This document shows, in pieces, positions 6,047 to 34,452 of a stretch of 64,000 nucleotides of DNA (positions within the stretch are counted from its first letter, which is position 1; each line of letters starts with the position of its first letter). The position numbers and the translations under genes were made by a program. The notes beneath the pieces were generated by a model. That model ran no database searches and was not told the origin of the DNA. It saw only the letters and a list, made by a program, of their open reading frames with translations. Location of the stretch: assembly GCA_949372655.1 (NCBI GenBank), contig CASIAI010000008.1:1-64000 (forward strand). Reading direction: 5' to 3'. Origin of the DNA: Candidatus Poseidoniaceae archaeon (GTDB lineage: Archaea; Thermoplasmatota; Poseidoniia; Poseidoniales; Poseidoniaceae).

Positions 6047-7045
6047 ATGAGTCACAGCAGATTAAGCACTCCGATCCATGTATTGGTTACTGGAGGGGCG
6101 GGATTTATTGGCTCGAATCTTGCTGAACACTTGATTCAGAACGGTATACGAGTCACGGTATTAGATAATTTATTGACCGGAAAAATCGAAAATATTTCGC
6201 ACCTTATGGATTCTGAGTTATTTACATTCGTTAAAGGAGATATTCGGGATTTTCAGACATGCAAAGATGCCGTTGTCGGATGTACTCACATCAGCCACCA
6301 AGCAGCTTTGGGCTCAGTTCCAAGATCAATTGACGATCCAATCACAAGTCTCGACATAAACATTTCAGGGACTGTGAATGTATTCCGGGCTGCTGTCGAA
6401 GAAGGAGTCAAGAGGATTGTTTTTGCATCGAGTTCGTCCGTTTACGGTAACGATCAAACGTTACCGAAGACCGAGGCTAAAGTCGGTGAAGTTCTTTCAC
6501 CTTATGCCGCAAGTAAACGCTCAATGGAACTGATTCAACAGGCTTTTGTCGAATGCTACGATGTCGAGATACTTGGTTTTCGATATTTCAATGTCTTTGG
6601 AAAGCGACAAGATCCCGAAGGGCCTTATGCTGCAGTGATTCCTAAATTCATCATGAGTCTTGTCGATGGAGAAACTCCGTTTATCTTTGGTGATGGCGAG
6701 CAAAGCCGTGATTTCACCCATATCAGTAATGTTGTAACTGGAAATATGGCTGCTTTACTGAAACCATCTTTGGGTAAATTGAATGGAAAAGTGATCAACT
6801 TGGCATACGGTGGTATGACTACTGTGAATGAACTATTTTACGGAATTCGGAAAAATGTAGGTCTTCAATATCCAGATGCACTTAAAATTGAACCATCATA
6901 TCAGGCTAAAAGGTTGGGTGATATTTTACATTCACACGCCAATATTGATATGGCGAAAAGTGAACTTGGCTTCGTTCCCGATATTGCTATCGATGAAGGA
7001 CTTCAACGAACAGTTGAGTGGTATCTGCAACAAGTGAAGGATTAG
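6047..7045 (+). CDS. UDP-sugar 4-epimerase, WbpP/TviC-like (extended SDR)
   Basis: 332-residue extended short-chain dehydrogenase/reductase. It probably interconverts UDP-N-acetylhexosamines or their uronic acids at C4 for surface glycan synthesis. The NAD-binding motif GGAGFIG lies at about residues 16-22. The catalytic site is visible as a Ser-rich FASSSSVYG block and a YAASK (Tyr-x-x-x-Lys) motif. HQAALGSVPRSIDDP and FRYFNVFGKRQDPEGPYAAVIP match the WbpP/TviC branch better than classical GalE. It begins an apparent operon: the PP-loop gene starts one base after its stop. A matching TviB/WbpA-type dehydrogenase lies about 9 kb downstream. The exact sugar is not determined by sequence alone. 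Confidence 0.85.
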   Translation: MSHSRLSTPIHVLVTGGAGFIGSNLAEHLIQNGIRVTVLDNLLTGKIENISHLMDSELFTFVKGDIRDFQTCKDAVVGCTHISHQAALGSVPRSIDDPITSLDINISGTVNVFRAAVEEGVKRIVFASSSSVYGNDQTLPKTEAKVGEVLSPYAASKRSMELIQQAFVECYDVEILGFRYFNVFGKRQDPEGPYAAVIPKFIMSLVDGETPFIFGDGEQSRDFTHISNVVTGNMAALLKPSLGKLNGKVINLAYGGMTTVNELFYGIRKNVGLQYPDALKIEPSYQAKRLGDILHSHANIDMAKSELGFVPDIAIDEGLQRTVEWYLQQVKD

Positions 7046-25758: not shown

Positions 25759-27276
25759 CTAATTTATATCGCGCAACAATCGCTCTCTAAGGGCTTCGTG
25801 TAACCACATCCCATCCTCTAATTCTAGTAATAGTCCATGCTGAATCAAATCTTTTGGGGGATTACCTTGCCAACCGACCAAACCTGCTAACTTTTCCCAA
25901 GTCATAGGCACATTTGCCTTAGCGAGTTGTAAAAGCAATTTGCGCTCAAGTTCCGGTAATCTAATAATAATCTCATCGTCTAGAAACTGCAGCCAATCTA
26001 CGTGTGTCTCTTGTCCATATAATTCGAATAATTCTAAGGCTAAAGGGTGGCCTCCTGTCTTCTCATGAACCCGTTCAATTTCATACTTATCACTAGATTC
26101 AAAGTCCTTTAGCCAATTCTTAATTTCTAATTTTGTAAGTCCTTGCAATGATAATTCTTGCACTATACCTCTTGTATGTACGTCCCTTCTATCATAAATT
26201 GTCGGCTTGGTTCTTGAAATCAATAATAATCTCAAAGGAGTTTTGTTTGAGAGTTGTAATAATGCACCGAGTAAATCTTTAGCTTCCGACTCAATATGAT
26301 GTACATCATCTAGAATTATCAACCAATATGGAGGGGGGCCACCAGATTCGTCTTTGAAACGTTCGCGTATAGTGTCTGCATCAGTCAAGTAAGCAGTAAG
26401 TCTTCTTCTCCAATTATCGACATCGATTTTCCCAGCAGGCTGAATTGGTAAAGTTTCAATTAAATTATATGGATCATGAGATTCATCTATACCAAATCGG
26501 TGAAGTAAACTTGTAGCAATTCCTAATGCACGGTCCCATGGTTGACATGGGTACCAACATATTGAAAGATGAGGATTCTTTTCTACATTCTGTTTGACCC
26601 AGTGAGATACTAATGTAGACTTACCAATACCCGCAATTCCATGAACAACTGCGCAAGGTTTACGACTTGAAAACCAAGAGTCTAATTCTTCAATTTGCTC
26701 TTTACGGCCGTGTACAGGTCGGGTCTTTGGTGGTTGATTATTGTAGGTGGCATGAACTCCTGTTAACGCTAAAAGCCTGCCTGGGGGAGCTAAATCATCT
26801 TGTTTCGACTGCCTGATTTTTCCAAATCTAATATCGCCATAAGTTAGAACCCCCTCGTGTTGTGCATGCATCAAAATTTGCAGTAAAGAAATGTCAGTAG
26901 CTAACCTTTCTGATGCTTTTGATGCTTCAACTTCTAGTAATTCGCCATTATTATCTCTCAGTACTACCTTGGTTTTACCTAAGGATTTACGAGTTTGTTG
27001 CGCTTCTGTACGGCCTTCTGGAGTGAGTTGCCATGTTTTTTGTCGCCTTTCTTCACCGCGTATATTTCTAGTATGCTCTGATACATGTTGCTTCTTCAAC
27101 AAATCCCTCATTGTTCTACTAACATTCGGTGGGTGTAAGGCACATGATTCTGCGATCCCTGGCCTTGTAAGTGCAAAATCAGCAAGATAGCGGTCGGCTT
27201 GCTCATCATTTTCGAATAAATGAAGCAATACGCGGTCTTGTACAGCGATGTTGACCTTGGGAATCCCTGCGCTCAC
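25759..27276 (-). CDS. wHTH-STAND-like P-loop NTPase, probable ATP-dependent regulator
   Basis: About 505 residues from a GTG at 27276; a further GTG at 27354 adds 26 residues and cannot be excluded. Numbered from the longer start, residues 38-115 form a MarR-like winged helix (RVLLHLFEN, HPPNVSRTMRDLLKK, then a charged wing ending TPEGR). Walker A GIAGIGKST is at 239-247 and Walker B WLIILDDVHH near 334-342. An arginine-sensor strand LLLISRTKP and a GGHPLALELFE block follow, as in STAND and MalT-type NTPases. The C-terminus looks like a short winged helix without a repeat domain. It probably couples nucleotide state to DNA binding. It faces the large surface-protein gene across a short divergent promoter. 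Confidence 0.7.
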   Translation of the reverse strand: MSAGIPKVNIAVQDRVLLHLFENDEQADRYLADFALTRPGIAESCALHPPNVSRTMRDLLKKQHVSEHTRNIRGEERRQKTWQLTPEGRTEAQQTRKSLGKTKVVLRDNNGELLEVEASKASERLATDISLLQILMHAQHEGVLTYGDIRFGKIRQSKQDDLAPPGRLLALTGVHATYNNQPPKTRPVHGRKEQIEELDSWFSSRKPCAVVHGIAGIGKSTLVSHWVKQNVEKNPHLSICWYPCQPWDRALGIATSLLHRFGIDESHDPYNLIETLPIQPAGKIDVDNWRRRLTAYLTDADTIRERFKDESGGPPPYWLIILDDVHHIESEAKDLLGALLQLSNKTPLRLLLISRTKPTIYDRRDVHTRGIVQELSLQGLTKLEIKNWLKDFESSDKYEIERVHEKTGGHPLALELFELYGQETHVDWLQFLDDEIIIRLPELERKLLLQLAKANVPMTWEKLAGLVGWQGNPPKDLIQHGLLLELEDGMWLHEALRERLLRDIN

Positions 27277-27381
27277 ATGATTGCGAATTATTCCTACATC
27301 TAAGCGATTGCTATCATTAGCGTGATTTTTGTTTACACAAATCAACCATAACACCTTTTAATATTGCTAGTACCGCCCATT

Positions 27382-30300
27382 ATGACATCCAGATGGTCAA
27401 GCGTTTTTATCGCTGGACTATTCTTGTTTGTAGCCGCCCTGCCATTCGTTTCGGCTGATTCTGATGGCGATGGAGTTACTGATTCCTCTGATGATTGTAA
27501 ATGGTCTTATGGAACGTCAACAATAGACAGAATGGGTTGCCCAGATAGAGATAATGACGGAACTTCTGACTTTAATGATGGGTGGGCAGCAAATGTTCCT
27601 AACTTTCAAAATCAATATACAATCACTTCAAATCAAGATTATAATGATGTAGACTTCTCTTCTGATAGTATTAATATTGTTACTGGTGATGAAGATGGGT
27701 GGGTTAGAATTTGGAATGCTACTTCTTTTGTTAATCTAAAGTCAGTACAAGCTATTTCGGGTGGAGAAGTCACTTCTGTATCTTATTCTTCAGACGGAAA
27801 CTATGTTGCTGCAGGGCTGGATGATGATACAATTAACATCTATTATTCCTCTAACATCTCTTCTGTACATGGCTCGATAAGTGTCGATGTTGGCGGTGGA
27901 GATTTTGTTAATGATGTTGAATTCTCACCCGATAGTAGCCTTGTTGCGGTTTCTATTACAAATTCTGGAAATGGAGGAACAAATGGACAAGTGATTTTGA
28001 TCAAAGTATCTGATGGCTTACAACTTGGAAATGGAATTAATCCTAACGGAGAAGATAGATTCTATGCATCTGCATTCTCCCCCGATGGCACACATATTGT
28101 CGTGGCTGGAAACGGTGACTTCTATGTAGTCAATGTTTCATCAAGAGCAACAGTATTCACCGAAACTAGCCCCCCAGGAGGAATTAATGATATCGATTGG
28201 TCTCCGGATGGGAACTATATCTCCATGTGCGGGGCATGGGAAGGAAATGGAGCAAGTTTCGATATGTATGAGTTCTCTTCATCAGGATTGAGTCGTATAT
28301 GGGAAAAGAGCACTACTTCTTCATGTTTAGAAGCCGACTTCTCTGGAGACAGTAGACAAGTCGCAAATGGCCATTCATATTATCAAGGAGATGGTGGTTC
28401 AGTCAAATTATTTTATACGGATACTGGAGTTCAAGTTGATTTCTTTGGAGCTCCTGCCCCAAATGGGTGTGGGGGCAATAACTGCGGACAAGTTAACGGA
28501 TTAAGTTGGAGTTCTGATGGCATGAAATTAGTAACAACTTATGGAAGAAATGATGAAGGGATTCATTTCTGGTTTGCTGATATTGATGAAGATAATGACG
28601 GATATAATACTACAAACCAAGGTGATGGCGTTGTTGACGCATTCCCAACTGAAGGAACTCAATGGAATGATAGCGACGGTGATGGATATGGCGACAACCC
28701 TGCTCCTGCATTCCAACCCGATGAATGCATAAGTGATTTTGGAACTTCTACAGCAGATCGCTTCGGTTGTCTTGATGGCGATGGCGATGGATGGTCTGAT
28801 GCAGGTGATTGGGCACCTACTGATTCGGAGCAATGGGTCGATACTGACAGTGATGGTTATGGAGATAATTACCTTTATGAAGAAGATGAGAATTTCTTCC
28901 ACCTGAATCAAAGAGGCGATAAATATCCTACCAATCCAACTCAATGGCATGATACTGATGGCGATGGCTATGGGGATAACTTTGCAAATTCTTCATGGGT
29001 ACAAATAAGACCGTCCTCATGGCCTGGAAATTTAATCCCTACTGCAACCGAAGTGGATGCTTTTCCATTAGACCGAACTCAGTGGATGGATAGTGACGGT
29101 GACTGGTACGGAGATAATCCACAAAGTGATGTAGGAGATGGCTGTGTAATGACTTTTGGCGATTCCAAGTATGACCGATTCGGATGTATAGATACCGATG
29201 GTGATGGATGGTCGGACCCAACTGGAAACTGGGGCGCTATTGATTCTGGAGGCTACTGTCAGGCTGATGGCCTACCATTAGACCCAACACAGTGGTGTGA
29301 TAATGACCAAGACGGCTACGGTGAGAATCTAACTGGGAATAATCCTGATGAATGCCCCAATCAATTTGGCACATCGTCTATCGATAAACTGGGCTGCCCT
29401 GATACAGATGGAGATGGGTACTCAGACCAAGGTGACCCATTTCCTAATGATAGCACTCAGTGGGCTAATAGTGATGGAGATTCATTAGACTGTGGAGGAG
29501 ATAATCAAACCGGAAATAATCCAGATGTATTTCCCGATGACCCCACCCAATGTAGAGATACTGATGACGATGGATATGGCGATAATTCAGCAGGAAATAA
29601 CGGTGATGCATTTAGATTTGAACCAACTCAATGGAGTGATAGCGATGGCGATGGTTATGGTGATAATAACCAATCTGATGCAGTAAATGGGGACATTTGT
29701 CCGCTTCGTGCCGGCTCTTCGCCTAATCCTGCCACTAGAGGTTGCCCTGATACTGATGGCGATGGATTTGTCGACCCAGATGATGCTTTTCCAGAAAACC
29801 CACTACAATGGTCAGACCAAGATGGTGATGGTTATGGCGATGAAGTCGGCCGCCCTGGAGGAGATGATTGTCTAACTGAATATGGGAAGTCGTTGGAGAT
29901 GAATAGATTTGGTTGCCCCGACTTTGATGGTGATGGTTGGGCAGACGTAGACGATGTATTCCCTAATGATGAAAATCAGTGGACTGACACTGATAATGAT
30001 GGGTATGGCGATAATTATTACTGGACTAATTTAACAATAATAGATGAACAAGACTCAAATCGTGAAATCATTCTTAGAGAGCAATTTGGAGATGCATTCC
30101 CTGAAGAAAGCGAACAATGGAATGATACTGATGGTGATGGTTTTGGTGATAATGCTAGTAGTTATTTCAATCCGGATATGTTTCCATTAGAGCCGTCTCA
30201 ATGGAATGACGGTGATAGTGATGGTTTTGGTGATAACTTTACCTTGGGCGCCTACCAACCAGATGATTGTCCAGATGTTGCTGGTACATCTAGAAAAACG

Positions 30301-30822
30301 GCTACTAATGGCCAGTGGGGCTGTATCGATTCTGATGGAGATGGCGCGTCAGACTTAGTAGACCCTTGCCCTTGGGACCCTGAAGTCTCTATTGGTAAAG
30401 CAGGTTCAGTTGTATGTAATATCAACACTAATCCAAACCCACAAGACCCTTCTAGCGATTCTAGTGAATCGGGTTCTGATTCAAGTAGTCAAACTCTAAT
30501 CATTATGTCTGCTGTAATTGTGTTTTTATTATCGATAATTATTGTTGCTCAATTCGCTAAGGCTGCTGGTAAGAAAAAGCTCGTTAAGTCTAGAGCAGAA
30601 GAAAAAATGATGGATATGGCTTTTTCTGAAGAAGAAGACCGTAGACTGGCTTGGATTGATCATTATGTTGCTAGTGGTCAGTTAGAGGATGCAAAGGCTC
30701 TCGGTTGGGTTGAACCAATTACCACTGAAACGCCCCAATGGAAGCAATTTGAATTACAGCAAAAAGCCGAACAAGATGCTGCTATACCGGATATGATTAA
30801 CCTTGATAACTTAGGGCTCTAA
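27382..30822 (+). CDS. Giant secreted surface protein: beta-propeller, DxDxDG repeats, C-terminal membrane anchor
   Basis: 1146 residues from the ATG at 27382; a TTG at 27364 is in frame upstream but the ATG starts directly at a signal peptide (residues 1-24). Residues about 85-400 carry WD40/PQQ-like blades (for example YSSDGNYVAAGLDDDTINIY). Residues 403-1000 hold many Ca-binding repeats, most ending DTDGDGYGDN or similar, with conserved single Cys pairs, resembling thrombospondin type 3 repeats. A Ser-rich linker leads to a membrane span near 1038-1060 and a charged cytoplasmic tail of about 85 residues. The layout places the bulk outside the cell. It lies divergent from the NTPase gene, which might regulate it. 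Confidence 0.9.
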   Translation: MTSRWSSVFIAGLFLFVAALPFVSADSDGDGVTDSSDDCKWSYGTSTIDRMGCPDRDNDGTSDFNDGWAANVPNFQNQYTITSNQDYNDVDFSSDSINIVTGDEDGWVRIWNATSFVNLKSVQAISGGEVTSVSYSSDGNYVAAGLDDDTINIYYSSNISSVHGSISVDVGGGDFVNDVEFSPDSSLVAVSITNSGNGGTNGQVILIKVSDGLQLGNGINPNGEDRFYASAFSPDGTHIVVAGNGDFYVVNVSSRATVFTETSPPGGINDIDWSPDGNYISMCGAWEGNGASFDMYEFSSSGLSRIWEKSTTSSCLEADFSGDSRQVANGHSYYQGDGGSVKLFYTDTGVQVDFFGAPAPNGCGGNNCGQVNGLSWSSDGMKLVTTYGRNDEGIHFWFADIDEDNDGYNTTNQGDGVVDAFPTEGTQWNDSDGDGYGDNPAPAFQPDECISDFGTSTADRFGCLDGDGDGWSDAGDWAPTDSEQWVDTDSDGYGDNYLYEEDENFFHLNQRGDKYPTNPTQWHDTDGDGYGDNFANSSWVQIRPSSWPGNLIPTATEVDAFPLDRTQWMDSDGDWYGDNPQSDVGDGCVMTFGDSKYDRFGCIDTDGDGWSDPTGNWGAIDSGGYCQADGLPLDPTQWCDNDQDGYGENLTGNNPDECPNQFGTSSIDKLGCPDTDGDGYSDQGDPFPNDSTQWANSDGDSLDCGGDNQTGNNPDVFPDDPTQCRDTDDDGYGDNSAGNNGDAFRFEPTQWSDSDGDGYGDNNQSDAVNGDICPLRAGSSPNPATRGCPDTDGDGFVDPDDAFPENPLQWSDQDGDGYGDEVGRPGGDDCLTEYGKSLEMNRFGCPDFDGDGWADVDDVFPNDENQWTDTDNDGYGDNYYWTNLTIIDEQDSNREIILREQFGDAFPEESEQWNDTDGDGFGDNASSYFNPDMFPLEPSQWNDGDSDGFGDNFTLGAYQPDDCPDVAGTSRKTATNGQWGCIDSDGDGASDLVDPCPWDPEVSIGKAGSVVCNINTNPNPQDPSSDSSESGSDSSSQTLIIMSAVIVFLLSIIIVAQFAKAAGKKKLVKSRAEEKMMDMAFSEEEDRRLAWIDHYVASGQLEDAKALGWVEPITTETPQWKQFELQQKAEQDAAIPDMINLDNLGL

Positions 30823-30906
30823 TCATAGACAAGTAATGATTTATGGCTAATTATACACATTAATTGCACCGCTGCCCTTTCAAGTAATGACATTATCTCA
30901 AGTTAT

Positions 30907-33486
30907 ATGGGGGAGTCTTCTAGGTTTCTAATTGGCCTAGTTTGTGGCCTCTTTATTCTCTCTGTAATTCCACAATCTTCCGCTCAAGAAGAAATTAATT
31001 TAGAAGATTTAAAACTTGAATTTGATAATCAATTTGAGAATTGGTATGAAGTCGGTGAAGTTTTAGACATTCATCCAATCTTGACAAATTTAGGAGATCA
31101 AGTTTCTATCTCTAATGACCCTTCATGTGGCACCTATTTTATAATCAAAGACACTGAGTCGAATATTATTTACGATAACTCGCAAAATTGCCGTGACCAA
31201 GTCCAGCAATTAACACTTCAATCAATGGAAATTTATAATTTTGAAAACTGGCAGTGGGACTTTACTAATTCAGCTGGAAACAGTGTCCCTTCTGGAACTT
31301 ATACTGTTGACCTAATCCATAGCAAGACCAATATTAAAGCCACTAAGGAAATCTATTTTCAGAAGAATATAACATTTGATTCAAATCTTGAATTAAATTT
31401 AGAAATAGAGTCTTTTGGGAGCGCTAGCGACAGAGATGGACATCACTTAGTGAGTATAACTTTGGCTAACCCCACCAATACTGAGATAATTCTGCCTTAT
31501 CAGGAATCATGTAGGTTGATTTATTCATTCAATGGCGAAGAGAAAATGCTCGATTCATGTTATGGTGGGAATTTGAAATTACATAACTTTGAATACTCTT
31601 ACCTCGATGGTGTTTTTATTGAAAGAGGCGCGTTAATCGAAGGTGATAATTTACTCACGATTACTACACCTGGTGGTGATTTACAACAACAATTAGTCAT
31701 TGAAAATAATAATCCGATCACTTCCGATTTTAATCAATTAGATGAACAAATAAAATTCACTACTAGCAAAAATATTGGATTAGAAACAGACCACATTTCA
31801 TTCCTATCATATTCTCTAGAATTAACAAATATAGGTGAACAATCTATACAGCTCACCTTCCCAAATACATGTAAATTCCAAATGTACATCATAAGTGACC
31901 TCTCTGAAAAAATATATGACACTTCTGAACAACAATCGTGTCAAGAGTTTCAAACATCTCACACTATTGAAACTGGAGAAGTACTGACTTTCGACCTACC
32001 TGAATGGTATCTTGAAGATCAAAATAATTGTTATATTAATTCTGGGAGTTATACCATTGTTCTAGAAATTTTACAGTATTCGATGACGAGCGTAGAACGG
32101 TTTGACTACTCTGAAGCCTACCGAAATCCTGGATGTACTGAAGAAATAATCGGATTTGAAAGCGAATATGAGATTGTTGATAATGAAGTTCTCTCATCTA
32201 TTAAAATATCCCCTTCACGGACAATAGTCAAGATAAATGAACCTTGTATGATCTCTGTGTACTTAACTCCTGTTGATGAAGGGATAGAGTTTGAAGATAC
32301 ATCTTTTGGAGATTGTGATTATAATTCTGGAAATTATTTCAGCATGCCACTATCAGATAATAATGAAGTTGGCATTCTAGAATTTGAATCAAGCATTATG
32401 ATTCCGCAGATTATGGGCATGGAATCTATCGAATTACTCCTGTCAGCGGAACATACCCTTGGAGGTGAGGAGACTCTAAATCATACCTTTACCTATGATT
32501 ATGGTTATGTAAACGAGGTGTTTAAGCCTGTAAAATGGCAATTAGAAGGCTTATGGACAAATATTGGTACCGGGCAAAATGACTGTTGGATGATTTCTAA
32601 TAGTGAAGATTCTTTCTTGATGGTAAAGTCTGATGAGTTATCTTCATGGAGTCCGAAAAATAATTGGAAAGGGGACTATCTTGTTTCTGAAACCTCAGCC
32701 CTCAATGGAGTTTGTCAATCACAATTTGAATTGAAGGGCATCGAGGTTTATTCGGTATATAGCGAAGAAAAAGTAATAATTGAAGAACAAGCAGTAGTTT
32801 CAGAAAATGGCTTAGTAACCGATCAAAAAACTACTCCTGAAGAAGTTGTTCAAGTGGCTATCGTAGTTGTCTCTACGACTTCTATGTTTGCTATTCTGGG
32901 CCTCTTTGTAATCAATACTGAATCTATGAGAATTCCAACTACTACTGCTGGACTTTGGCTATTAGGGCTACTTGGTAAGACTCAAGAAACTACAGATGGA
33001 AGATTCCAAAGAGGTCGTCTAATGGGGTATCTAACCGCTAATCCTGGTTGTCACTTTAGAGCCTTAATGGCCGCTTTAGGTATGAGTAATGGTCAAATTA
33101 CCCATCATTTACGATTATTAGAGCAACAAGAACTGATATGGCGCCTAAGAGATGGGCGATTAGTTAGATACTATCCTTTGAATAATTCGCTATATCCTGG
33201 AATGAATCCTGATCAACTTCCAATCCCGCCACTTTCTCCTGATCCAAATAGCCTCCAAGGTAAAATCTTGAGCCTACTTGATGATGAGCATCAGTATGGA
33301 AAATTCCCTACTCAAGCGGAACTTGCTGTGAAATTAGAAAAGAGTCAGCAATTGATTTCTCATCACCTTCGTACATTACAGAAGTTTGGACTAGTTGAAA
33401 AGCGAAAGATGGGAATAAAAAATCGATATAAATTAACTAAAGAAGCATTATTCCTTCTCGAAACTGATATTGACTTCAAAGAATAA
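30907..33486 (+). CDS. Membrane-tethered one-component regulator: BsuPI-like ectodomains, TM, two winged helices
   Basis: 859-residue protein. Residues 1-26 are a signal peptide. The ectodomain holds at least three similar beta-domains with paired Cys (around 28-125, 145-240 and 280-390). The first resembles BsuPI: YDNSQNCRDQ, then a Trp-x-x-x segment and VPSGTYTVDLIH. A further Cys-rich stretch follows. One membrane span lies near 650-670. The cytoplasmic part has two winged helices, at about 697-760 (ALMAALGMSNGQITHHLRLLE) and 782-855 (KLEKSQQLISHHLRTLQKFGLV), both ArsR/MarR-like with recognition helices of matching pattern. The sequence shows a sensor outside joined directly to DNA-binding domains inside. 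The ligand and targets are unknown. The 3' end overlaps the kinase gene by 11 bases. Confidence 0.8.
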   Translation: MGESSRFLIGLVCGLFILSVIPQSSAQEEINLEDLKLEFDNQFENWYEVGEVLDIHPILTNLGDQVSISNDPSCGTYFIIKDTESNIIYDNSQNCRDQVQQLTLQSMEIYNFENWQWDFTNSAGNSVPSGTYTVDLIHSKTNIKATKEIYFQKNITFDSNLELNLEIESFGSASDRDGHHLVSITLANPTNTEIILPYQESCRLIYSFNGEEKMLDSCYGGNLKLHNFEYSYLDGVFIERGALIEGDNLLTITTPGGDLQQQLVIENNNPITSDFNQLDEQIKFTTSKNIGLETDHISFLSYSLELTNIGEQSIQLTFPNTCKFQMYIISDLSEKIYDTSEQQSCQEFQTSHTIETGEVLTFDLPEWYLEDQNNCYINSGSYTIVLEILQYSMTSVERFDYSEAYRNPGCTEEIIGFESEYEIVDNEVLSSIKISPSRTIVKINEPCMISVYLTPVDEGIEFEDTSFGDCDYNSGNYFSMPLSDNNEVGILEFESSIMIPQIMGMESIELLLSAEHTLGGEETLNHTFTYDYGYVNEVFKPVKWQLEGLWTNIGTGQNDCWMISNSEDSFLMVKSDELSSWSPKNNWKGDYLVSETSALNGVCQSQFELKGIEVYSVYSEEKVIIEEQAVVSENGLVTDQKTTPEEVVQVAIVVVSTTSMFAILGLFVINTESMRIPTTTAGLWLLGLLGKTQETTDGRFQRGRLMGYLTANPGCHFRALMAALGMSNGQITHHLRLLEQQELIWRLRDGRLVRYYPLNNSLYPGMNPDQLPIPPLSPDPNSLQGKILSLLDDEHQYGKFPTQAELAVKLEKSQQLISHHLRTLQKFGLVEKRKMGIKNRYKLTKEALFLLETDIDFKE

Positions 33487-34360
33487 TCTCTTCTCTGTGT
33501 AGCCCTGTCTTATCGGTTTGCCAGTCAATGTTGACCCAATCTTTAGATTGTAAGTCTTGTATTATATCCTCTCTATTACAAGTCTCAGATAATAAAACAC
33601 CTACTACTCCACCACCACCGGCTCCCATTGCTTTCCATGCTACTATGTCACCTGTAGAAGTGTAAGGTTGCAGTTTTTTCCGGAAAGGGTCGTGTAATTC
33701 TAATCCAAGAGCATCAACACTTCGCATAACGAGTTTTAATGAGTTGATGACTCCATTTTTTGATTCATTAGCGACCGCTTTAGCCATAGATAATCCCGAC
33801 TCTCTGATATTATCCAATGCTTGATTTATCTCTTCATCTCCGTAATGGAATTTTTCCCAAATCGATTTATGTAAATCTCCAGAGACATGTGTCATCCGAC
33901 TATTGAAAAGTAGCAATCTATCTTCAAGCCATGAAATAAACTGAGTTGAAGGATTCAAAGGTTTGTGCTCAACCCTTTCGCCTTTGAATGACAAATGACT
34001 AATTCCCCCTACAGCACTGGCCCATTGGTCTTGTCTGCCACCTTTATTTCCTAACAGAAGTTCAAATTGATAGGCTAATTCTGCAATTTCTTCAGACTCA
34101 TAATCAGAACCTAAAATAGCTCCTATTAGGCTTACATTCATACAACCTGAAGTACCTAGGCCAGAACCAGTTGGCATATCTGTAGAATATGAAAGTGAGA
34201 TTTTTCTTTCATCATCTATCTCCATGATACAATTAGTATACTGATTGATTGCAATATTCACTACTTCTCCGGATTTAGTATTACAATAATTAGGAACATC
34301 AGTCCAACCTCCTGCTAAATCAATTCTAGCGGGAGCTCGTACAGAGATTCTCTTAGCCAT
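33476..34360 (-). CDS. GHMP-family sugar kinase (HddA / fucokinase-like)
   Basis: 294-residue kinase. The N-terminal substrate block RAPARIDLAGGWTDVP is typical of heptose 7-phosphate kinase HddA and the kinase half of fucokinases. The ATP-binding loop is PTGSGLGTSG at about residues 64-73. Later GNKGGRQDQWASAVGG and MGAGGGGVVGVL complete the GHMP fold. It would phosphorylate a sugar or sugar phosphate at C1, feeding nucleotide-sugar synthesis. Nucleotidyltransferase genes at 44.2 and 49.3 kb could act next, which is inference. It is divergent from leucyl-tRNA synthetase across 92 bases containing an inverted repeat, and convergent with the membrane regulator. Confidence 0.85.
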   Translation of the reverse strand: MAKRISVRAPARIDLAGGWTDVPNYCNTKSGEVVNIAINQYTNCIMEIDDERKISLSYSTDMPTGSGLGTSGCMNVSLIGAILGSDYESEEIAELAYQFELLLGNKGGRQDQWASAVGGISHLSFKGERVEHKPLNPSTQFISWLEDRLLLFNSRMTHVSGDLHKSIWEKFHYGDEEINQALDNIRESGLSMAKAVANESKNGVINSLKLVMRSVDALGLELHDPFRKKLQPYTSTGDIVAWKAMGAGGGGVVGVLLSETCNREDIIQDLQSKDWVNIDWQTDKTGLHREEIIL

Positions 34361-34377
34361 GTACTATGTGAATGATT

Positions 34378-34411
34378 ACCCCCTCATCAAGAGTGTCATT
34401 GAAAGGGGGGT
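34378..34411. repeat. Imperfect inverted repeat in divergent promoter region
   Basis: ACCCCCT and AGGGGGGT face each other across about 19 bases, between the divergent starts of the sugar kinase and leucyl-tRNA synthetase genes. The G-run and C-run make this an unusual feature in AT-rich DNA. It could be an operator or an RNA hairpin at the 5' end of one transcript. Chance is possible. Confidence 0.3.
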
Positions 34412-34452
34412 GATTCGTGGAGGTATTATCTCCGAGATAGGCGCTGGTAACT

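Follow-up and report, generated by a model that had tools for sequence, protein, structure and literature searches.

How could an archaeon carry a message from its surface to its DNA by means of a single polypeptide? The question is raised by a gene located at positions 30907..33486 (+ strand) of the window, the whole stretch analysed here, which comprises 64,000 nucleotides of contig CASIAI010000008.1 (assembly GCA_949372655.1) of a Candidatus Poseidoniaceae archaeon. The window is contig C8 of a 1.58 Mb assembly, 75% complete. Named relatives with orthologues of the gene are metagenome-assembled genomes of Poseidoniales, or Marine Group II. These archaea are abundant in surface waters and, since to our knowledge they are uncultivated, little is known of how they sense their surroundings. 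The initial annotation, made from the sequence alone, had proposed a signal peptide, three or more cysteine-paired BsuPI-like domains outside the cell, one membrane span and two winged helices inside. The results presented here indicate that the gene product is very probably a membrane-tethered DNA-binding regulator, as judged from its sequence. Two features that were not in that annotation are added: the regulator is co-inherited and linked with a WD40/TSP3 membrane protein encoded upstream of it (the partner), and its promoter contains a conserved element.

The gene is a single open reading frame (ORF) that runs uninterrupted from an ATG exactly over the annotated interval and encodes 859 amino acids. 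With its product align 29 orthologues at 25-71% identity (alignment A1, 30 rows), and the ratio of non-synonymous to synonymous substitution (dN/dS) lies far below 1 in 16/16 close pairs, as is proper of a real gene and not of a chance frame. The layout is that of a type I membrane protein with tandem winged helices at the C-terminus. The signal peptide (amino acids 1-26; 30907..30984, on the + strand as all parts of the gene) coincides with a hydropathy peak at residues 1-27 and with a helix, 4-20, of the AlphaFold model. In the full-length model five beta domains follow outside the membrane, with block values of the predicted local distance difference test (pLDDT) mostly of 75-94. Three of them, delimited by the model and by profile-profile comparison, are mutually homologous (probabilities of 98.9, 95.9 and 93.0): D1 (30-156; 30994..31374; C74 and C95, whose conservation also marks the domain), D3 (276-412; 31732..32142; C322, C345, C375 and C410) and D4 (413-536; 32143..32514; C447 and C470). 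The Pfam family BsuPI, PF12690, matches the regulator with 44.4 bits (cut-off 22.9), its best stretch, 301-389, being in D3, and it matches 44/52 orthologues at E 0.01. The relation of D2 (157-272; 31375..31722; C202 and C218) is uncertain, with probabilities of 51.8 to D1, 23.6 to D3 and 3.2 to D4. The juxtamembrane D5 (537-625; 32515..32781), which the alignment also supports and which contains C560, C603 and the conserved W550, W581 and G589, is unrelated to the other domains (0.1-1.9). Hence, the 'three or more' BsuPI-like domains of the annotation hold as three related domains out of five. The 12 ectodomain cysteines are all kept in 30/30 rows of A1 and would form disulfides; thus, in the annotated 'Cys-paired' the cysteines are firm and the pairing is a prediction. 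Conservation of the ectodomain is weak except at Cys, Gly and Trp (means of 0.22-0.54 over blocks of 20 residues), and Foldseek searches with the whole model returned mostly multi-domain immunoglobulin (Ig)-like proteins at query TM-scores of 0.08-0.15, with no functional lead.

The ectodomain ends in a stretch, 626-659, just outside the membrane span, where both model confidence and conservation are low. The transmembrane helix (645-670; 32839..32916) is defined by a hydropathy peak at 645-672 and a model helix at 645-669. It is followed by a conserved segment (672-692; 32920..32982; ESMRIP...GLWLLGLLGKT) with invariant E672 and R675, which is helical in a low-confidence model and is perhaps an interfacial helix. 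The ectodomain is acidic (28 K/R vs 103 D/E) and the C-terminal part basic (25 vs 19), so the winged helices should face the cytosol; hydropathy and charge therefore agree with the annotated order of signal peptide, single span and inner winged helices.

Winged helix 1 (698-757; 32998..33177) corresponds to PF24266 (HTH_HVO_0163_N), which matches residues 701-758 with 46.6 bits (cut-off 31) and is found in 52/52 orthologues at E 0.01. Winged helix 2 (783-851; 33253..33459) is ArsR/MarR-like: HTH_5 scores 43.3 bits (cut-off 22, best stretch 804-832), and NF033788, the ArsR/SmtB metalloregulator profile, reaches 60.8 bits over the whole protein in two stretches (cut-off 55). ArsR/SmtB metalloregulators carry metal-binding cysteines in a motif of the ELCVCDL type in the recognition region. 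Winged helix 2 has no cysteine and winged helix 1 only C715; as the metal-binding cysteines of the recognition region are absent, the regulator is not filed among the metalloregulators. Because the full-length model gave the winged helices low confidence, this part was modelled alone (mean pLDDT 69.8, predicted TM-score 0.40), and the top Foldseek match was then the winged-helix tandem of TFIIIC, SmtB/ArsR proteins being among those that followed. Profiles, alignment, model and Foldseek thus all support the two annotated winged helices. The initial annotation would have been refuted by winged helices devoid of DNA-binding residues, for which no support was found: both recognition-helix regions are near invariant in the alignments, that of 52 sequences included, and DNA binding is predicted. 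The winged helices show dN/dS values of 0.007-0.030 and the ectodomain of 0.068-0.264 (16/16 close pairs each), compared with 0.031-0.076 for LeuRS (measurable in 12/16) and 0.033-0.223 for the partner (measurable in 6/16). The DNA reader is hence under stronger constraint than a housekeeping tRNA synthetase. A tightly constrained reader joined to a drifting sensor is what would be expected if a receptor acts on a constant target while its input changes or is loosely defined. Topology, conservation and fold are best read, as first annotated, as those of a membrane-tethered one-component DNA-binding protein with an outside sensor.

The regulator is an orthologous protein throughout the order. 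At E 0.001, 142 of 145 genomes contain a match, many of them to the membrane and winged-helix part only; when presence is defined as a match beginning before residue 600, which excludes the latter, 84/145 genomes possess it. These comprise 68/72 genomes of family f1, that of the window, and 16/73 of family f2. All 16 f2 genomes belong to genera g14, g16, g18 and g21. Several other f2 genera encode shorter proteins, of about 350 amino acids, with related winged helices; one of these, L049, aligns from residue 533 and was left out of the count, and its short ectodomain may correspond to D5. The 52-row alignment (A2) consists of the window protein and 51 of the 56 sequences left at 85% identity from the 77 of 80 named loci that gave complete ORFs.

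The partner gene (27382..30822, + strand) encodes, from its ATG, 1146 amino acids with a signal peptide, WD40-like repeats, TSP3-like DxDxDG repeats, one transmembrane span and a conserved cytosolic tail of 74 amino acids (30598..30819, +); Pfam and comparison define these parts, the TSP3-like repeats, span and topology having been assigned by eye and the tail by a search of the 145 genomes. The neighbourhoods of 96 loci were compared (80 named and 16 unnamed, some genomes being represented twice, e.g. L032/L115, L033/L125 and L047/L099). The partner lies upstream of the regulator on the same strand in 86 of the 87 loci with more than 1 kb of upstream sequence; the gap is 55-202 nucleotides, with the genes adjoining, in 44 loci, 795-1068 nucleotides in 38 and 2.2-4.0 kb in 4. 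At the exceptional locus, L035, the contig does encode the tail, some 6 kb upstream. The WD40 region of the partner, present in 80/145 genomes, occurs together with the regulator in 78; the regulator alone is found in 6, the WD40 region alone in 2 and neither in 59 (the Fisher test on these figures treats as independent genomes that are related). The tail is still more exclusive, being present in 79/84 genomes with the regulator and in 0/61 without it. It is carried by four of the six genomes with a regulator and no WD40 match (G007, G035, G097 and G143). Among the five genomes with a regulator and no tail (G014, G015, G016, G121 and G136), the contig of G014 ends within 0.4 kb, and G016, G121 and G136 have the WD40 region. 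Counted by genus, 13/21 have both tail and regulator and 8/21 neither, the genomes compared being related and not independent events.

Other genes may stand between the two. A metallo-beta-lactamase-fold gene, identified by eye, is located there on the opposite strand and divergent from the regulator at L168:7142-7921 and L169:1382-2152, and a gap of about its size (795-1068 nucleotides) is that seen in 38/87 loci. A PAS/histidine-kinase-like gene, also assigned by eye, is part of what separates the two at a pair of wide-gap loci (L045:8600-9817 in g16 and L046:7168-8442 in g21), and is perhaps a further input.

Upstream of the regulator, positions -39 to -17 relative to its ATG are occupied by a conserved 23-nucleotide element, ACCGCTGNNCTTTCAARTRATGA (30868..30890, +), a candidate operator marked by its conservation in genus g1 and by a genome-wide pattern scan. 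In its own genome it has one copy at three or fewer mismatches, the reversed-pattern control giving 0 (in an assembly 75% complete). Written with N at four positions, the pattern is exact in 33/95 loci and has one mismatch in 10. The best 23-nucleotide block upstream of the regulator shows a mean of 4.32 mismatches over 77 loci, against 10.85 for the null, and the corresponding values for other genes are 6.00 for STAND (53 loci), 6.43 for RPE (23), 6.59 for thioredoxin (29), 7.08 for LeuRS (79) and 9.44 for TPD (32). The values for the partner, 1.00 in only 5 loci and 6.99 in 80, do not permit a fair comparison with other genes; the best block of the 80-locus set probably falls within the opening codons of the STAND gene. 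The partner has an element of its own, ACCAYAANNCCTTTTA (27345..27360, +), at -37 of its ATG, which by pattern comparison resembles that of the regulator in layout and has a perfect match only once in the genome. A composite pattern, ACC-N4-6-CCTTTYA, was scored in the 90 nucleotides upstream of genes; the scanned sequence contains it 77 times. The regulator has it upstream in 43/79 cases and the partner in 24/62, and it was found before LeuRS in 0/69, GHMP in 0/46, STAND in 0/44, thioredoxin in 0/10 and TPD in 0/10. Searches for a wider regulon in the own genome with relaxed patterns gave 18 matches vs 75 for the reversed pattern and 43 vs 40, hence no clear further sites; a third pattern gave six matches, two of them the promoters used to write it, with 1 in the control. 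An inverted-repeat operator, CATCCCTT-CT-AAGGGATG, looks clean in genus g4 and was rejected, as 80 sites (83 loci tried) show a weak dyad with an indistinct axis.

On these grounds we lean, with somewhat more than even confidence, towards a model in which the regulator and the upstream WD40/TSP3 protein, both type I, would together form a surface receptor; its tethered winged helices would control the regulator's gene and probably the partner's as well. The regulator would expose a string of disulfide-stiffened Ig-like/BsuPI-like domains, cross the membrane with one helix and present two winged helices inside. A surface condition would be sensed by the complex or by the partner, whose TSP3-like repeats probably bind calcium; a role of calcium is suggested by these repeats only. 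The membrane helices, together with the dedicated cytosolic tail of the partner, would pass the signal on to the winged helices. Held just under the membrane by the short conserved segment, the winged helices would bind, as a still-anchored dimer, the regulator's own promoter and probably the partner's, at the conserved elements overlapping the core promoter, and so the levels of both proteins would be set. Repression fits best with the overlap between element and core promoter, activation being possible as well.

Several observations weigh against this model, and some of them favour a quite different one, in which the upstream element serves only as an unusual core promoter, or is bound by a different regulator, and the protein described here acts on genes elsewhere. 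Within the element, CTTTCAA (30877-30883, +) is a probable core promoter box, recognised by its fixed distance before start codons, and five other genes of the genome (618 ORFs called) likewise have it at -28 to -31. Part of the conservation of the element is therefore probably that of a core promoter; CTTTCAA is probably the box of leaderless genes, and the flanks the specific part. In family f2, the best matches at 10 loci have 7-9 mismatches and no comparable element was found. The dyad symmetry is weak except in one genus (best axis 0.43 complementary vs 0.42 and 0.40 for others; mean 0.26, standard deviation 0.07), and with so indistinct an axis a conserved element is claimed and not a palindrome. 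A block in the GHMP-LeuRS interval is similarly conserved (a mean of 4.29 mismatches over 45 loci). Both promoters had already been seen when the composite pattern was drawn up, its matches before the partner are at -37/-38 in 11/24 and others are listed at -16, -19, -49 and -88, and a few of the 62 partner genes may be TSP3 paralogues; the choice of start codon may explain some of the odd positions. Being post hoc, variable in position before the partner and drawn from related loci, the composite is suggestive and not proof. The core-promoter explanation is nonetheless opposed by the uniqueness of the whole 23-nucleotide element in the assembly and by the restriction of the composite, among the neighbours tested, to the promoters of regulator and partner; we regard it as a serious possibility that falls short of being probable. 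As to the partner, about half of the loci have room for another gene between it and the regulator, and two genomes of genus g9 have a WD/TSP3 protein without the regulator (the tail is absent there too). Linkage alone proves little, since the STAND gene, a winged-helix + STAND/AAA_16 ATPase gene by Pfam (25759-27354, - strand) divergent from the partner, is also linked, in 52/55 loci (in two of the three misses, L044 and L046, the retrieved sequence stops just short of it), yet occurs in 140/145 genomes of the order. It is only the phyletic pattern that sets the partner apart from this near-universal gene, which was rejected as part of the system because it is present regardless of the regulator.

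The remaining alternatives concern how the receptor works. A protease might free the winged-helix part by regulated intramembrane proteolysis and turn it into a soluble factor, as the poorly conserved, low-confidence stretch 626-659 beside the span would allow and as winged-helix-only homologues of 188-194 amino acids in genus g16 suggest, given that the pair can stand alone. Such release is unlikely: the conserved segment 672-692 keeps the pair near the membrane, and no protease domain was found in the nine window proteins scanned with Pfam (elsewhere, neighbourhoods were compared with window genes only). The same scan bears on the proposal of the initial annotation that the ligand could be a protease, or a peptide, bound by the BsuPI domains, with attack by the protease as the signal. 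Three domains are BsuPI-related, one with a strong Pfam match, but the ectodomain is weakly conserved apart from the positions mentioned, and relatives carry CARDB, PKD, carboxypeptidase-regulatory or TSP3-like domains on the same module, so the Ig-like domains resemble a general-purpose scaffold for sensing. Moreover, according to the available text of PMC3901451, BsuPI/IPI was dropped by MEROPS as it is unclear whether it is an inhibitor or a competing substrate, which makes the inhibitor status of BsuPI doubtful. Nothing was found that points to a protease, and we consider this proposal improbable. No better is the prospect of a thiol/disulfide sensor, in which the 12 conserved cysteines would report the redox state or oxidative folding at the surface. 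It would account for their retention in all rows of A1 and for the thioredoxin gene third upstream of the regulator. In the wider alignment A2, however, C410 varies (it is kept in at least 90% of rows, the other 11 of 12 being invariant), and structural disulfides ordinarily amount to one to two pairs per beta domain, which is the pattern seen. Least credible of all is a structural role at the surface, the winged helices being relics or anchoring the chromosome with no regulatory effect, as it conflicts with the dN/dS of the winged helices and with the near-invariant recognition-helix regions.

The tethered two-protein receptor that we favour can be compared with several known systems. The initial annotation knew of no archaeal system with this layout. 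As a general kind, such systems exist: a survey (Demey et al. 2023; PMC10269533) counted 1,384 transmembrane transcription regulators (TTRs) in archaea, and ArnR and ArnR1 of Sulfolobus acidocaldarius are membrane-bound one-component regulators (PMC6396743). Like the TTRs, defined in the available part of the survey by a predicted transmembrane region and a predicted DNA-binding domain in one single-pass polypeptide acting from the membrane (PMC10269533), the regulator combines both (hydropathy peak at 645-672 and winged helices). It fits that class as a variant layout; no large Cys-rich Ig/BsuPI ectodomain, tandem winged-helix module or co-inherited partner was met in that part of the survey. 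ArnR and ArnR1 are reported, in the portion of the article available, to control surface structures and to bind conserved promoter boxes; they differ in having an N-terminal helix-turn-helix, HAMP-like and sensor domains and two C-terminal transmembrane spans, with no large ectodomain reported there (PMC6396743). Domain order and topology are reversed in the regulator. The BsuPI/IPI of Bacillus subtilis has an Ig-like fold (PMC3901451, available text) and the regulator scores above its family cut-off, best in D3; its domains differ in being repeated, cysteine-bearing and part of a predicted membrane receptor.

Functional parallels are also known from bacteria. TcpP/TcpH, as far as the available text describes them, join a tethered regulator to a single-pass membrane partner that controls TcpP. 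In ToxR/ToxS, too, a tethered regulator is controlled by a membrane partner. The bacterial regulators of this type have their DNA-binding domain at the N-terminus, in the opposite topology, and are, as far as we know, unrelated to the pair described here, whose partner differs in its large size, its WD40/TSP3 make-up and a cytosolic tail of its own. Tentatively, and with less than even confidence, the two genes may constitute a dedicated transmembrane circuit unlike the described archaeal systems, regulating chiefly the receptor pair itself, and an independent archaeal counterpart of ToxR/ToxS-like pairs. Whether the same architecture is already described was a point on which the annotation had made its novelty depend: module and general kind (TTRs) occur elsewhere, and the open-licence literature yielded no publication on the exact layout, the module or the regulator-partner pair. 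Nor did that literature yield any on COG3398, on signal transduction with a transcriptional regulator in Poseidoniales, or on BsuPI in archaea beyond the IPI structure. Marine Group II thus gains a concrete candidate receptor, with a named partner, in 84/145 genomes of the order, and the 23-nucleotide candidate operator and small DNA-binding part make an in vitro test possible without culturing the host.

The membrane and winged-helix module is more widespread than the regulator. The 30-row profile matches 99/243 genomes of the phylum, which we take to be Thermoplasmatota in GTDB, at E 1e-10 (order included). Outside the order, the matches listed start at profile position 609 or beyond, covering the C-terminal part only; the ORFs that carry them measure about 180-2847 amino acids. 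Of 14 loci fetched, the 12 from outside the order show one or two hydrophobic peaks, a segment resembling LPLYTKIKK..VLD and then winged helices. PF24266 is above cut-off in 10/10 of the relatives chosen for a Pfam scan, beside a membrane span by hydropathy in 8/10 (L231 and L232 being below the cut-off). The ectodomains on the module include NPCBM_assoc, CARDB, PKD, He_PIG, carboxypeptidase-regulatory and DUF2330 domains, or none named. These proteins share with the regulator the span, the short conserved segment and the two winged helices, in that order, and differ from it in lacking the BsuPI-like string with 12 cysteines. In the Poseidoniales proteins L050, L231 and L232, TSP3-like DxDxDG repeats (by eye) are fused to the same winged-helix module; their presence in the partner and on relatives of the regulator is a hint that both kinds of domain work together. 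The genome of L050 has a WD/TSP3 protein without the dedicated tail. Among the controls, Haloferax volcanii also matched PF24266, a family named after a Haloferax locus. A transmembrane and tandem winged-helix module with many ectodomains is thus a wide family across the phylum, of which no description was found in the open-licence literature. Free-standing tandem winged-helix proteins of 188 amino acids related to the regulator's DNA reader are encoded in genus g16 (L051:4608-5174 and L173:4904-5470), and contig C1 of the own genome contains two adjoining winged-helix genes (L055:6538-8400), the first with an N-terminal hydrophobic stretch.

A CTTTCAA(G) box is located at -28 to -31 of the start codons at 6047, 30907 and 50254 of the window, and of start codons at other loci, and is likely a core promoter element of Poseidoniales. 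Downstream of the regulator, LeuRS is found in 89/89 loci. A GHMP-kinase-like gene (33476-34360, -) lies between them in 44 of the 89 loci with downstream sequence, the others having none at the threshold used. The interval between GHMP kinase and LeuRS (34361-34452) contains, on the - strand around 34405, a conserved block, CCCCCTTTCAATGACACTCTTGATGAGGGGG, with complementary ends, which could be an operator or an RNA hairpin.

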